Source of the DNA: Malaciobacter halophilus
GTDB taxonomy: Bacteria > Campylobacterota > Campylobacteria > Campylobacterales > Arcobacteraceae
Direction of reading: 5' to 3'
Assembly (NCBI RefSeq): GCF_002837275.1
Contig: NZ_NXIF01000041.1
Coordinates: 1 to 64,000, forward strand
DNA length: 64,000 nt
Part shown: piece by piece, positions 19,727 to 26,907 of the stretch
Numbering within the stretch: the first letter of the stretch is position 1
How the letters are laid out: the number at the start of each line of letters is the position of its first letter
Program-made: the position numbers and the translations under genes
The notes under the pieces: model-generated
Database searches by the model: none
Told to the model about the DNA's origin: nothing
What the model saw: the letters and a program-made list of their open reading frames with translations, nothing else

Positions 19727-20140
19727 ATGCCATTAATTTCAAGTAAGGGAGTATATGGTCTTATGGCCATGCATGAGTTAAGTAAACATAAAAAGGATAC
19801 TCCCATGCAAATTAAAGAGATTTCAAAAAATGCACAAATTCCTCAAAACTACTTAGAACAACTTCTAAGTAAATTAAGAAGAGCAGGACTTGTTAAAAGT
19901 GTTAGAGGAGCAAAAGGTGGGTACATTTTAGCCCAAGAGCCTGAAAAGATTAATATAGGAGAAATATTGTCAGTTTTGGAAGATGATTTAAAAATTATCG
20001 ACCAAAGAACTCAAAACCCTATATTAAATCTTTTCTTTGATGATGCGAAAGCAAATATGAAAAACTATTTTAATATATCTCTTGCAAAATTAGATGAATA
20101 TCAAGAGAAATATAATGAATTTTTACACTATAGCATATAA
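19727..20140 (+). CDS. Rrf2 family regulator, CymR-like (no cysteines)
   Basis: The 137-residue winged helix regulator has the Rrf2 opening ISSKGVYGLMAMHELSKHK and the recognition region IPQNYLEQLLSKLRRAGLVK (about 43-62). The Fe-S cysteines of IscR/NsrR are absent; no cysteine occurs anywhere in the protein. That resembles CymR, which senses sulfur status through a complex with CysK. Here it lies between metY and cysK, which supports a sulfur-regulatory role. CymR identity is inferred, not shown. Confidence 0.85.
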   Translation: MPLISSKGVYGLMAMHELSKHKKDTPMQIKEISKNAQIPQNYLEQLLSKLRRAGLVKSVRGAKGGYILAQEPEKINIGEILSVLEDDLKIIDQRTQNPILNLFFDDAKANMKNYFNISLAKLDEYQEKYNEFLHYSI

Positions 20141-20158: not shown

Positions 20159-21091
20159 ATGAAATATGCAAAAAATGTTACAGAATTAATTGGAAATACA
20201 CCTTTAGTACAACTTCAAGGTGCTAGTAAAAGAAGTGGAGCAACTATTTTAGGTAAATGTGAATTTATGAATCCTACTCACTCTGTAAAAGATAGAATTG
20301 GAACAAACATGATTAAATCAGCACTTGAAAAAGGTTTAATCAATGAAAATACAACAGTTATTGAGCCTACAAGTGGAAATACAGGTATTGCTTTAGCATC
20401 AGTTTGTGCAGGTCTTGGAATAAAACTTATTCTTACAATGCCAAGTTCAATGAGTATTGAAAGAAGAAAATTATTAAAAGCTTTAGGTGCACAACTTGTA
20501 TTAACTGAACCAGAAAAAGGTATGAAAGGTGCTGTTGATAAGGCAAATGAACTAAGTAAAGACATAGATAACTCATTTGTTCCTCAACAATTTGCAAATG
20601 AAGCAAATCCAGAAATTCATAGACAAACAACAGCTAAAGAGATTTTGGATGCAACTGATGGAAAAGTAGATATTTTAGTTGCTGCAATTGGAACAGGTGG
20701 AACAATTACAGGTACAGGTGAAATTTTAAAACAGCATAATCCAAATATCCAAGTTATTGCAGTTGAACCTGAGGCATCTCCGGTATTAAGTGGAGGGAAA
20801 CCAGGACCTCATAAAATTCAAGGTATTGGTGCTGGATTTGTTCCTGATATTTTAAATACTAAAGTTTATGATGAGGTAATACAAGTTTCAAATGAAGATG
20901 CTATTGAAGCTTCAAGAGCATTAGCAAAAGAAGAAGGTTTATTAATTGGAGTATCTGCTGGTGCAAATGCAAAAATTGCTGAAGAAGTTGCTTCAAGACC
21001 AGAAAATAAAGGTAAAACAGTAGTAACAATCCTTTGCGACACAGGTGAAAGATACTTAAGTTCAGGATTATATGAATATGACGATGAGTAG
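20159..21091 (+). CDS. cysK: Cysteine synthase A (O-acetylserine sulfhydrylase)
   Basis: The 310-residue PLP enzyme shows ELIGNTPLVQLQG, the PLP lysine in NPTHSVKDRIG (about residue 40-46), the substrate loop EPTSGNTGIALA (about 65-76), and the phosphate loop GTGGTITGTGE (about 178-188). It makes cysteine from O-acetylserine and sulfide. AAGGAG precedes the ATG. The Rrf2 gene is immediately upstream. Confidence 0.96.
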   Translation: MKYAKNVTELIGNTPLVQLQGASKRSGATILGKCEFMNPTHSVKDRIGTNMIKSALEKGLINENTTVIEPTSGNTGIALASVCAGLGIKLILTMPSSMSIERRKLLKALGAQLVLTEPEKGMKGAVDKANELSKDIDNSFVPQQFANEANPEIHRQTTAKEILDATDGKVDILVAAIGTGGTITGTGEILKQHNPNIQVIAVEPEASPVLSGGKPGPHKIQGIGAGFVPDILNTKVYDEVIQVSNEDAIEASRALAKEEGLLIGVSAGANAKIAEEVASRPENKGKTVVTILCDTGERYLSSGLYEYDDE

Positions 21092-21137: not shown

Positions 21138-21368
21138 ATGCATGAAAAACCCTACAGATCAGTTGTAAAAACAGTTTCTTGGAGAACCCTTGGTACATTA
21201 GATACTATGATTATCTCTTACTTTATTACTGGTAATTTAGTAATGGCTGCATCTATTGGCTCAATCGAAGTAGTTACAAAAATGATTCTTTACTATTTTC
21301 ACGAAAGAGCATGGAATAAAATCCCATTAGGTAGAATTAAACCTACTCAAAATGATTATCAAATTTAG
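21138..21368 (+). CDS. DUF2061 membrane protein
   Basis: The 76-residue protein has the DUF2061 signature KTVSWRTLGTLDTMIISYFI and KMILYYFHERAWNKI, with two short membrane segments. Family members often occur within cysteine biosynthesis operons and are thought to affect sulfate or related transport, but no activity is proven. It sits between cysK and cysH, consistent with that trend. Confidence 0.88.
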   Translation: MHEKPYRSVVKTVSWRTLGTLDTMIISYFITGNLVMAASIGSIEVVTKMILYYFHERAWNKIPLGRIKPTQNDYQI

Positions 21369-21376
21369 GTGAATAA

Positions 21377-22075
21377 ATGAATATTATAGATGAATTAAAT
21401 GAGAAATTAAATGAGTCTTCAACAAAAAAGATTATTGAGTACTTTTTAGGTCAATATAAACATAAGATTGCCCTAGCCTCAAGTTTAGGAGCTGAAGATC
21501 AAGTTTTAACAGATATGATTTTTAAAGTTAATAAAGAATCAAAAGTATTTACTCTTGATACTGGAAGATTAAATCCTGAAACATATGAAGTAATGGATGC
21601 AACAAACTTAAAATATGGTGTAAAACTTGATGTTTACTTTCCAAATCTTAAAGATGTACAAGAGTTATATAAAACTCAAGGTGTAAATGGACACTATGAG
21701 AGTATTGAAAATAGAAAAAATTGTTGTGCTATTAGAAAAATCGAACCCTTAAAAAGAGCTTTAAAAGGACTTGATGTTTGGTTTACAGGGCTTAGACGTT
21801 CTCAAAGTATTACAAGAGAAGAGATGAAGTTAGTTGAATGGGATGAAGCTTTTAATTTAATCAAAGTTAATCCTTTAATAAATTGGACGCAAGAAGATGT
21901 GTGGGATTATATAAAAACAAATAGTGTTCCATATAATAAGCTTCATGACAAAGATTATCCAAGTATTGGGTGTGCACCCTGTACCAGAGCCGTTAAGGAC
22001 GGTGAAGATATAAGAGCTGGTAGATGGTGGTGGGAAAACCCTGAACACAAAGAGTGTGGTTTACATAAAAAATAG
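21377..22075 (+). CDS. cysH: Adenylylsulfate (APS/PAPS) reductase
   Basis: The 232-residue protein has the PAPS/APS reductase fold with ALASSLGAEDQVLTDMI and the FTLDTGRLNPETYEV loop. It carries the Fe-S cysteines CC (in NRKNCCAIRK) and GCAPCT, and ends ECGLHKK with the catalytic cysteine. The paired cysteines mark the [4Fe-4S] APS-reducing type. That fits the absence of an APS kinase (CysC) in the block. It reduces activated sulfate to sulfite. Confidence 0.93.
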   Translation: MNIIDELNEKLNESSTKKIIEYFLGQYKHKIALASSLGAEDQVLTDMIFKVNKESKVFTLDTGRLNPETYEVMDATNLKYGVKLDVYFPNLKDVQELYKTQGVNGHYESIENRKNCCAIRKIEPLKRALKGLDVWFTGLRRSQSITREEMKLVEWDEAFNLIKVNPLINWTQEDVWDYIKTNSVPYNKLHDKDYPSIGCAPCTRAVKDGEDIRAGRWWWENPEHKECGLHKK

Positions 22076-22139: not shown

Positions 22140-23051
22140 ATGTTAGATACAAAAAGATTAACTCACTTAAAGCAGTTAGAAGCTGAGTCAATACATATTA
22201 TTAGAGAAGTTGTAGCAGAGTTTAACAACCCAGCTATGCTTTATTCAATTGGTAAAGACTCTGCTGTTATGCTTCACTTAGCTGTAAAAGCCTTTGCACC
22301 AGCAAAGCTACCATTTCCTTTACTTCATGTTGATACAACATGGAAATTTAAAGAGATGATTGAGTTTAGAGATAAAAGAGCTAAAGAGTTAGGAGTTGAG
22401 TTACTTGTGCATGTAAATCAAGAAGGTGTTGAGCAAGGAATTGGTCCTTTTTCTCATGGAAGTGCAGTTCATACAGATGTAATGAAAACTCAAGGGTTAA
22501 AACAAGCACTAAATAAATATAGATTTGATGCTGTATTTGGTGGGGCTAGAAGAGATGAAGAAAAAAGTAGAGCAAAAGAGAGAATTTACTCATTTAGAGA
22601 TAAAAATCATAGATGGGACCCAAAAAATCAAAGGCCAGAACTTTGGAATATCTATAATGGAAAAGTACATAAAGATGAGTCAATTAGAGTATTTCCTCTT
22701 TCAAACTGGACAGAATTAGATATTTGGCAATATATATATTTAGAACAAATTCCAATTGTTCCACTATATTTTGCTAAAAAAAGACCTGTTGTAGTAAAAG
22801 ATGGAATAAAAATAATGGTTGATGATGACAGAATGCCAATTGAAGATGGTGAAGAAGTAAAAGAAGAGATTGTTAGATTTAGAACTTTAGGTTGTTATCC
22901 TTTAACAGGTGCAGTTGAAAGTACTGCAACAACTCTACCTGAAATTATTCAAGAGATGTTACTTACTAAAACAAGTGAAAGACAAGGAAGAGTTATTGAT
23001 AATGACCAAGCAGGTTCAATGGAGAAGAAGAAAATAGAGGGGTATTTTTAA
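22140..23051 (+). CDS. cysD: Sulfate adenylyltransferase subunit 2
   Basis: The 303-residue protein has the PP-loop [14 protein letters not shown] (about 36-49) and [19 protein letters not shown] (about 129-147). It forms APS from sulfate and ATP together with CysN. The start follows GGAGAG. The next gene, cysN, begins one base after its stop, so the subunits are co-translated. Confidence 0.96.
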
Positions 23052-23052
23052 A

Positions 23053-24462
23053 ATGGCACATCAATCAGATTTAATAGCATCAAATATAAAAGAGTATTTA
23101 AAAGAGCATGAAAATAAAGAGTTACTAAAATTTATTACTTGTGGAAGTGTTGATGATGGAAAATCAACTCTAATTGGAAGACTTTTACATGATTCAAAAA
23201 TGATTTTTGAAGACCAGTTAGCAGCAATAAAAAATGATTCTAAGAAAACAAATACAACAGATAAAGAGTTTGATTTAGCACTTTTAGTTGATGGGCTTCA
23301 AAGTGAAAGAGAACAAGGAATTACAATTGATGTTGCATATAGATATTTTAGTACAGATAAAAGAAAATTTATAATTGCAGACACTCCAGGGCATGAACAA
23401 TATACTAGAAATATGGCAACAGGTGCAAGTACAGCTGATTTGGCTATTATTTTAATAGATGCTAGATATGGAGTTCAAACTCAAACAAAAAGACACTCTT
23501 TTATTACGAAATTATTAGGGATTAAGCATATAGTAGTTGCAGTTAATAAAATGGACTTAGTTGATTTTAGTGAAGATAGATTTAATGAAATTAAAACACA
23601 ATACTTAAAGTTTGCAAAAAGTTTAGGAATCCAAGATGTTATTTTAATTCCAATTTCTGCACTAAATGGTGATAATGTTGTAAATAAAAGTGAGTTTTCT
23701 CCTTGGTATAAAGGTGATACTTTAATGCATACATTAGAAAACATTGAAATAGCAAAAGATAGAGATTTACAACATTTTAGGTTACCAGTTCAATATGTAA
23801 ATAGACCAAACCTTGACTTTAGAGGTTTTTGTGGAACAGTTGCTTCTGGAATTATTGAAGTAGGAGATGCAGTTACTGTACTTCCTTCTAAAAAAAGTTC
23901 TCATGTAAAACAAATCGTTACATATGAAGGAAACTTAGATTATGCATATGCAGAACAAGCAATTACAATTACTCTTGAAGATGAGATTGATATTAGCAGA
24001 GGAGATGTTATTGTAAAAAGTGATGAGCAACCAGATACTGCTAGTAATTTTGATGTTGATATTGTATGGATGAGTGATGACCCCTTAATAAAAGGAAAAA
24101 CTTATAATATAAAAAGAGCAACAACAACTACAACAGGAAGTATTGATAAATTCTATTATAAAACAGATGTTAATACTCTTGAAAAAGATGAAAGTACAAA
24201 TGTATTAAATTTAAATGAAATTGCCCATGCAAAATTAGATTTAGACCAAGAGATTACTTATGATGAATATACACATAATAAAACAATGGGTAGCTTTATA
24301 ATAATTGATAGAATAACAAACAATACAGTTGGTGCAGGTATGATAAAAGATAAGTCAAAAGAGCAAGGTAAAAAAAGTTCAGATTACTCACAGTTCGAAA
24401 TAGAGTTTAATGCTTTAGTTAGAAAACACTTTCCTCATTGGGATGCAAAAGTAATAAAGTAG
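23053..24462 (+). CDS. cysN: Sulfate adenylyltransferase subunit 1 (GTPase)
   Basis: The 469-residue GTPase shows G1 [20 protein letters not shown]2 near [16 protein letters not shown]3 [12 protein letters not shown] and G4 NKMDLVDF. It couples GTP hydrolysis to APS formation by CysD. It lacks the C-terminal APS kinase domain of NodQ/CysNC fusions, in line with direct APS reduction by CysH. Confidence 0.96.
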
Positions 24463-24470
24463 GTAATTAT

Positions 24471-25571
24471 ATGGTAAAACGTATAACTTCAGATGAAATT
24501 GAAAGAATAAAAAAAGAGAAAAGTGGCTTAGATGTCCTTGCGGACATCTATTTATATGCTGTTTTAGGTGAGCCTGTACAAGAAGATGATATTTTAAGGC
24601 TTAAATGGTATGGATTAACTTTGCAAAATGAAGATATTTCAAATGCAACATTTACCCTAAAAGTTAAGATTATAAATGCAAAACTAACATTAGAGCAATT
24701 AAAAATAGTTGCAACTATTTCTAAAGAGTTTGCAAATAATAGTATAAGATTTGTATCAAGACAAAATATTGAGTTTGATAATATAAAAATTTTTCATATT
24801 CCTGCTATATTTAATCTATTAGATAGTGTAGGATTAAACTCTATTTATGCAGGAGGACATGTACCAACAAACATCATGTCTTGTCCTATAAATGGTTATA
24901 ATCAAAATCAAGCAACAGATGTAAGTGAACTTGTAAAAGAGCTAAATGAAGCTTTTGAAGCAAATAAAAACTTTGTAAATCTACCAAATGAACTAAAAAT
25001 TTTAGTTGATGGTTGTGGTTGTGTTGAAGAAGATTGCAATAATAATGATCTATTTTTTAAAGCAATTAAGAGTTCTAATGGTAAAATTCAATTTAAAGTT
25101 GATGTAGGTGTTAATGAAAAAATTATAAATATAGGATATATTGCACCTTCACAAGTTGTTCCATTAGCTAAAGCTGTTGCTAAAATCTATAGAGATTATG
25201 GATATAGACAGAATGAAAAACAATCAAAGCTTGCTTATTTAGTAGAAGATTGGGGAGAAAGTAGATTTATTAGTGCTTTACAATCTGAACTTACATTTAG
25301 AATAAAAGAGTCTTATGACTTTATAGATACAAAAAAAGAGTTTGAAAACTATTATGGTGTATATGATAGTAATAAAAAAGGTTATAGTTTCGTTGGTTTT
25401 GAGTTGAAAAATAAAAATATCAACGCTAAAGGCTTAGAAGAATTGATTTCACTCTTAGAAGAGTATGAAGCAACAACAGTAAAAATTACTCCAAAAGAGA
25501 ATATTATTGTTTTAGATGTACCTACTAATAGAGCAAAAAAGCTTGAACAAAGATTAAAACAGAGTTTTTAG
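24471..25571 (+). CDS. Sulfite/nitrite reductase-like protein lacking the catalytic C-terminal half
   Basis: The start is placed at the ATG at 24471, just after cysN. The 366 residues follow the hemoprotein reductase layout for the first part only: ILRLKWYGL (42-50), RFVSRQNIEF (93-102), the IPAIFNLLDSVGLNSIYAG segment (110-128), LPNELKILVDGC (171-182) and a second half-domain ending QRLKQSF. The siroheme and [4Fe-4S] cysteines (Cys-x5-Cys then Cys-x3-Cys) that belong after this are absent; Cys 182, 184 and 189 (GCGCVEEDC) are different. Normal enzymes are about 550 residues. The next 50 bases and the next gene do not continue it. The role in sulfite reduction is therefore uncertain. Confidence 0.75.
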   Translation: MVKRITSDEIERIKKEKSGLDVLADIYLYAVLGEPVQEDDILRLKWYGLTLQNEDISNATFTLKVKIINAKLTLEQLKIVATISKEFANNSIRFVSRQNIEFDNIKIFHIPAIFNLLDSVGLNSIYAGGHVPTNIMSCPINGYNQNQATDVSELVKELNEAFEANKNFVNLPNELKILVDGCGCVEEDCNNNDLFFKAIKSSNGKIQFKVDVGVNEKIINIGYIAPSQVVPLAKAVAKIYRDYGYRQNEKQSKLAYLVEDWGESRFISALQSELTFRIKESYDFIDTKKEFENYYGVYDSNKKGYSFVGFELKNKNINAKGLEELISLLEEYEATTVKITPKENIIVLDVPTNRAKKLEQRLKQSF

Positions 25572-25620: not shown

Positions 25621-26907
25621 ATGAGAAAAAATCTATTTCGAAAAATTATTGATAATAAAGATTTAAAAAAACATATTATAGGTCAACATAAAAATCTATA
25701 TTTTGATTATACAGCTTCAGGATTGGCTTTTGAGCCAATTGAAGCTCGTATAAATGAAGTTTTACAAACATATGCAAATACTCACTCAAAAGAAGCTTCT
25801 ATGGCAGATACGACAAGTAACTACTTTGAAGAAGCAAGAGAAAATCTAAAAAAAATGTTTGAATTAAATGAAGAGTTCACTATCTTACCAAATGGATGTG
25901 GTGCAACTGCTGCTATTAAACATTTTCAAGAATTAATGGGTATTTATATTCCTCCTGCTACAAAGCATAGATTTAATATTAGTGTTGATAAGTCTAAACT
26001 TCCTTTAGTAATAGTTGGGCCTTATGAACACCATTCAAATGATATAAGCTATAGAGAAGCTTTATGTGAAACAATTAGAATCAATCTTGATAATAAAGGT
26101 TTAGTTGATTTAAATCATTTAAAAGAGGTTTTAGAAAATAATAAAAATAGAGAGATTATTGGAAGTTTTTGTATAGCTTCAAATGTTACTGGTATTATAA
26201 GTGATTATAAAGCTATTTCAAATCTTTTAAAAAAGTATAAGGCTACTGTTTGTTTTGATGCAGCAGCTAGTTCACCTTATATGAATGTAGATTGTAAATA
26301 TTATGATGCACTATTTGTATCCCCTCATAAACTATTAGGTGGTCCTGGAAGTTGTGGACTTCTTATAATAAGAAAATCATTAATTAATAATGAAATAAGC
26401 CCTACTTTTGCAGGTGGTGGTACTGTTTTATATGTAAATAAAGATACTCAAGAGTATGATGAAAAAATAGAAAATAGAGAAAATGCAGGAACTCCAGGAA
26501 TTTTACAATTTATTAGAGCTTCTCTTGCATATCAACTTAGAAATGAAGTTGGATTTGAATATATAAAAAATAGAAAAAATGAACTTACTGATTACTTTAT
26601 AAATGAACTTAAAAAAATTGATGATATTATCATATATGGAAATTTAAAAGCTGAAAATATTGGTATTGTATCATTTAACATAAAAAATCTAAGTCCATAT
26701 GATTTATGTGCAAAACTATCTAATATTTTTGGGGTACAAACTAGAGCTGGATGTTCTTGTGCAGGCCCTTATGGTCATGATTTATTAGGGATAGAAAAAA
26801 TAGATTTAGAAAATAAACCTGGATGGGTTAGAGTATCAGTTCACTATACAATGGAAAAAGAGGATATTGATAACTTACTTCAAGCTATCAAAGATAGTAT
26901 CAAATGA
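25621..26907 (+). CDS. Class V aminotransferase, cysteine desulfurase-like (CsdA/SufS group)
   Basis: The 428-residue PLP enzyme has LYFDYTASGLAFEPIE near the N-terminus, a PLP-lysine motif ALFVSPHKLLGGPGSCG, and TRAGCSCAGPYGHDLL near the C-terminus. The last holds cysteine where desulfurases use their active-site cysteine. It may mobilise sulfur from cysteine for cluster building; other family V substrates are possible. It is the final gene of the sulfur block; the spacing to the reductase-like gene is 49 bases with no terminator. Confidence 0.8.
   Translation: MRKNLFRKIIDNKDLKKHIIGQHKNLYFDYTASGLAFEPIEARINEVLQTYANTHSKEASMADTTSNYFEEARENLKKMFELNEEFTILPNGCGATAAIKHFQELMGIYIPPATKHRFNISVDKSKLPLVIVGPYEHHSNDISYREALCETIRINLDNKGLVDLNHLKEVLENNKNREIIGSFCIASNVTGIISDYKAISNLLKKYKATVCFDAAASSPYMNVDCKYYDALFVSPHKLLGGPGSCGLLIIRKSLINNEISPTFAGGGTVLYVNKDTQEYDEKIENRENAGTPGILQFIRASLAYQLRNEVGFEYIKNRKNELTDYFINELKKIDDIIIYGNLKAENIGIVSFNIKNLSPYDLCAKLSNIFGVQTRAGCSCAGPYGHDLLGIEKIDLENKPGWVRVSVHYTMEKEDIDNLLQAIKDSIK

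Follow-up and report, generated by a model that had tools for sequence, protein, structure and literature searches.

The window, a 64,000-nucleotide stretch of Malaciobacter halophilus DNA, carries a sulfate assimilation operon in which the position after cysN is occupied by a sulfite reductase-like gene that lacks the region for the Fe4S4-siroheme cysteines. The locus raises the questions of which protein reduces the sulfite, and of what the short gene product, here called S, is.

Table 1. Features of S and of the surrounding operon, in window positions
Feature	Coordinates	Strand	Basis or remark
Rrf2-family regulator	19727..20140	+	Operon head; best NCBIfam model CymR, below its cut-off
cysK, cysteine synthase	20159..21091	+	
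DUF2061 small membrane protein	21138..21368	+	
cysH, APS/PAPS reductase	21377..22075	+	
cysD, sulfate adenylyltransferase subunit	22140..23051	+	
cysN, sulfate adenylyltransferase subunit	23053..24462	+	Ends 8 bases upstream of S
S, catalytically degenerate truncated sulfite/nitrite reductase-like protein	24471..25571	+	366 aa; S1-R1-S2 without R2
S1, first ferredoxin-like half domain	24645..24827	+	About residues 60-119 of S; Pfam NIR_SIR_ferr
R1, single NIR_SIR repeat	24861..25295	+	Residues 131-275 of S; substrate and siroheme site degenerate; Pfam NIR_SIR, residue tables
GCGCVEEDC, altered vestigial R1 cysteine loop	25011..25037	+	Residues 181-189 of S; many full-length relatives have GCxxxC
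S2, second ferredoxin-like half domain	25374..25562	+	Protein stops just short of the R2 start
Class V aminotransferase / SufS-like cysteine desulfurase	25621..26907	+	Last gene in conserved block

A reductase-like protein without R2

We surveyed 104 genomes of the family (Arcobacteraceae) and distinguished short copies (class S), full-length copies at the same place in the operon (class F), and full-length copies encoded elsewhere (class C). The operon has a conserved order (Rrf2, cysK, DUF2061, cysH, cysD, cysN, S or F, aminotransferase), from which a few genomes deviate slightly. As the first-pass annotation had stated, cysD, cysN, and cysH are all intact; they lie collinear just upstream of S, together with cysK. 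The S gene starts with an ATG at 24471, and there is an alternative TTG start at 24438.

Pfam matches NIR_SIR_ferr twice and NIR_SIR once in S, giving an S1-R1-S2 arrangement rather than the complete S1-R1-S2-R2; the missing R2 is the domain with both Fe4S4-siroheme cysteine motifs. The first-pass annotation had recognized the first repeat and the second ferredoxin-like half, and both are present, but it counted the first half as absent, whereas S1 is also found by Pfam. It had also reported the cysteine motifs as missing with the C-terminal part, and this extends to the whole class, with neither C-x5-C nor GC-x3-C present after residue 330 in any of the 48 S copies, compared with 24/24 F and 49/49 C copies. 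S scores 188.7 and 133.4 bits against the NCBIfam sulfite/nitrite reductase models, whose curated cut-offs are much higher (594 and 523). S thus shares the S1-R1-S2 fold of the ferredoxin-type assimilatory sulfite/nitrite reductases (M. tuberculosis NirA, plant NiR/SiR, and E. coli CysI) and descends directly from F, but differs in these features and in its replaced substrate residues. CobG (precorrin-3B synthase) is in the same superfamily and gives a partial NCBIfam hit, but was rejected as an identity for S because the score (82 bits) is below the cut-off of 234.8. No R2 remnant was found downstream of S, and a frameshift or readthrough into R2 was also rejected, as the next gene is the class V aminotransferase, starting 49 bases past the S stop. 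Conservation of the short form across 48 genomes, together with the lack of any downstream R2 remnant, excludes an assembly or frame error as its cause.

Four basic residues are reported to be perfectly conserved across sulfite reductases (PMC10229431), and these substrate-binding positions are placed by alignment at residues 64, 133, 174, and 176 of S. They are Arg, Arg, Lys, and Lys in all 73 F and C copies, compared with K64, T133, E174, and K176 in S and its counterparts in 6/6 species of the host genus; other S copies depart at these positions too, chiefly at 64 and 176. Further positions that are invariant in F and C are lost in S (T95, Q101, H103, D130, R173, R249, R253, and others), and the S-specific replacements H130 and N173 are fixed (47/47). 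By alignment and family background, the lost positions probably include siroheme contacts. As judged from its residues, S is catalytically dead, with the substrate-binding residues lost and the siroheme-contacting ones probably lost as well. We also considered S as a siroheme carrier, which we think unlikely given the many F/C-invariant positions that are lost. Annotation may nonetheless label S a sulfite reductase, giving a key sulfate assimilation step to a protein incapable of it.

The full-length paralog and sulfite reduction

A NIR_SIR search of the same genome matched only two genes, S and a full-length class C paralog of 527 aa on contig 44 (L008:7650-9233). The paralog has the complete domain architecture, both cysteine motifs (CTGKQYC and SGCGNAC), and the four basic residues expected of a siroheme-Fe4S4 reductase, and a siroheme synthase gene (CysG-like, CysG N-terminal) is present in the genome. 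Its closest PDB match is M. tuberculosis NirA, a sulfite reductase according to the title of reference 25 in PMC8092218. The first-pass annotation had suggested that another enzyme might reduce the sulfite and had named a second complete sulfite reductase as a finding that would count against its concern; C supports the former and supplies the latter.

C may conceivably serve nitrite reduction alone, but it directly follows cysN in G038 (L035) and neighbors cysHDN in G020 (L090), and it is the sole siroheme reductase found in the host genus. This gene context supports sulfite, and not nitrite, as its putative physiological substrate. We note that Arcobacter butzleri, of the same family, is reported to grow in minimal medium with neither cysteine nor methionine added, its sulfite reductase proteins being given as CysI and CysJ (PMC2147049). 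C is very likely the working sulfite reductase in vivo, and it mostly answers the puzzle of the missing sulfite reducer.

The first-pass annotation had also raised a split enzyme, in which a separately encoded R2 half completes S, and had proposed searching the genome for a separate protein with both cysteine motifs. Beyond the general logic that cysDNH are intact, nothing favors this arrangement, which we regard as barely credible. The search recovers the complete paralog C but no free R2 half: the six host-genus genomes each have three NIR_SIR domains and no more, of which C accounts for two and S for one, with no free-standing domain at Pfam NIR_SIR sensitivity, and there is none downstream of S. 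In such an arrangement S would also need to contribute the substrate-binding residues, and these it has lost. A tblastn search with R2 matched nearly always inside R1, as expected of an internal repeat, and never downstream of S on its strand.

The same genome has a second cysD-cysN pair on contig 90 (L223:7300-11780), followed by a longer DUF2061-like gene and by APS kinase (CysC)-like and CysQ-like genes, in an apparent polysaccharide locus that farther along contains sulfotransferase-like genes; comparison identified only cysD, cysN, and the DUF2061 gene, and the remaining genes were read from the sequence. Second C copies in three other loci (L096, L105, and L128) directly follow genes for cbb3-type cytochrome oxidase subunit-like proteins, also as read from the sequences.

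Distribution, origin, and constraint of S

S is present in 48 genomes of seven genera (g1, g3, g6, g11, g16, g17, and g18), in the slot after cysN, and its carriers include named Aliarcobacter and Poseidonibacter species. F is present in 24 genomes, 23 in the family and one (G058) outside it. All 48 S genomes carry C (only as a contig-end piece in G082 and G123), compared with 7 of the 24 F genomes, although this association is suggestive rather than significant by an independent-pairs test, because only one or two truncation events are involved. Four genomes (G008, G026, G019, and G115) have the operon without S or F but with C, such that the family presents a series of locus states: F only, F plus C, S plus C, and C alone. 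A class-level scan found S only in this family; elsewhere the matches are full length, save for one piece at a contig end, and Sulfurimonas, Sulfuricurvum, and Sulfurovum often carry F-type copies. The series of full-length copy, full-length copy with paralog, dead fragment with paralog, and deletion makes paralog displacement and the retention of a dead copy testable within one family.

Several individual loci merit mention. In G019, a 342-base AT-rich stretch with no assigned gene (L226:8661-9002) lies between cysN and the aminotransferase, the usual S/F place. In G115, of the same genus, a 570-aa open reading frame (L227:8456-10168) lies at the position of cysH and cysD, which are separate in G019, possibly reflecting a fusion or a sequencing error. 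The draft genomes G035 and G116 (genus g15) have cysN yet lack C, F, and S, and G035 is without any NIR_SIR match; sequence may be missing from these drafts.

In the phylogeny, a single clade arising within F holds 47 of the 48 S copies; on a subsample its support is 99/98. S derives from a full-length operon copy F and is no chance truncation, being old, widespread, and under selection. The first-pass annotation had allowed that full-length orthologs might reveal a simple truncation; the full-length ancestry is borne out, but the age, spread, and selection are not those of a simple loss. The one outlier (L022:1486-2667 in G021; 393 aa) ends at the first cysteine of C-x5-C (..SCTQ) and keeps most active-site residues. 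The tree suggests a second truncation here, perhaps a later one, and a single origin of all S copies, this one included, is not rejected (p-AU 0.085).

The 47 copies of the main clade, in six genera, are open frames of nearly constant length, mostly 359 to 381 aa. Within the host genus, dN/dS is 0.11 to 0.32 for S, compared with 0.09 to 0.22 for C and 0.05 to 0.18 for cysN; in another genus it is 0.07 to 0.21 for closer pairs of S and 0.34 to 0.53 for distant pairs. S is under purifying selection, though less constrained than its neighbors, and has neither the frame-breaking mutations nor the loss of constraint of a pseudogene. Its distances are about twice those of C; it outpaces both C and cysN in evolutionary rate and may thus be decaying to some extent. 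An AlphaFold model made with the S alignment (pLDDT 85.6, pTM 0.84) superimposes on residues 21 to 402 of NirA (1zj8) over 358 residues (Z 41.5, rmsd 2.6), and on this model S still folds.

Candidate roles for the retained copy

With a sulfite reductase candidate encoded elsewhere, the remaining question is the reason for which a dead copy is retained in the operon. We think it rather probable that S is a conserved pseudoenzyme derived from an ancestral F, displaced by C, and kept for a noncatalytic job in sulfur assimilation. An ancestor of several Arcobacteraceae genera would have carried F in the operon together with C as a second complete reductase, and the operon copy would then have lost R2 and the substrate-binding and siroheme-contacting residues. 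Sulfite from CysDN-CysH would now be reduced by C, and the S1-R1-S2 remainder would fold and be retained as a protein that partners either C or the CymR-like/CysK regulatory system with which the operon begins. That S acts as an accessory protein partner is a tentative part of this proposal. With similar caution, S may be a clade-wide pseudoenzyme that has newly acquired a regulatory or scaffolding function in the sulfur assimilation of Arcobacteraceae, reporting, say, to a CymR-like/CysK switch or partnering the reductase that displaced it. In the open-licence literature searched, we found no published description of such a sulfite reductase fragment, and if a regulatory or partner role is true, S would be a pseudoenzyme in a pathway for which that literature describes none.

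Alternatively, S could be functionless and slowly eroding after C took over, with the clean deletions in g4 and g15 as the end stage. The graded series of locus states, the doubled distances relative to C, and the lost catalytic residues all fit such decay. We nonetheless consider it unlikely in view of the nearly constant open frame, the low dN/dS in the host genus and in closer pairs elsewhere (though not in the distant pairs), the fixation of H130 and N173, and the confident predicted fold. Among specific functions, S might bind the CymR-like Rrf2 protein, or CysK, and report sulfite or cysteine status, much as CysK works with CymR in a CymR-CysK complex in Bacillus subtilis (PMC2869319). 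The operon does open with an Rrf2 gene, whose best model is CymR, followed by cysK. In a distance-tree comparison of correlation beyond shared ancestry, the partial r is 0.56 for S-Rrf2 (32 genomes) but 0.06 for F-Rrf2 (20 genomes). This correlation is, however, unstable when genera are taken singly (two S genera give 0.33 and 0.34, and an F genus 0.40), and the Rrf2 protein falls below the CymR cut-off, such that this exact form of regulation also seems improbable.

A pseudo-symmetric heteromer of S and C, by analogy with inactive DsrA and active DsrB, is somewhat doubtful, albeit a little less so; here S would stabilize C or hand over electrons or sulfite. The presence of C in every S genome, although representing few independent events, the retention of a complete S1-S2 unit with R1, and the precedent of DsrA as a structural subunit with an inactive site (PMC10229431) are consistent with it. 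However, the assimilatory enzymes are monomers (PMC10229431), four family genomes as well as G038 have C but lack S, and the S-C partial correlation over 32 genomes is weak (0.19; it was 0.63 in a discarded 14-genome run). Two genera keep the operon and C but have lost S/F, and C therefore needs no S in general.

The first-pass annotation had located GCGCVEEDC within the 366-residue protein, as we do, and had proposed it as a new cysteine site whose conservation should be checked in orthologs. Its C-x-C-x4-C form is kept in 6/6 host-genus species but is absent from the other S copies, which usually have one or two cysteines there, and many F and C copies have GC-x3-C in the corresponding R1 loop; a new site as a property of the family is thus not upheld. 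Within the host genus, the motif together with C138 could give R1 a new site for a metal or Fe-S cluster. C138, C182, C184, and C189 are the only cysteines of S and are kept in all six species, and internal repeat alignment matches the loop to the Fe4S4 C-x3-C loop of R2. Such a site is very unlikely, however, as the motif is missing from the other short copies, invariance is common in the host genus anyway (198 of 355 positions), and the loop has low model confidence.

For S as a conserved pseudoenzyme, DsrA, the inactive subunit of dissimilatory sulfite reductase DsrAB, offers a parallel, as a noncatalytic superfamily member kept beside an active one. S differs from DsrA in coming from an assimilatory four-domain enzyme, in the complete loss of R2, and in that its gene is not adjacent to that for C in its own genome, and the S model matches DsrAB chains more weakly than NirA, with Z of about 16 to 17.
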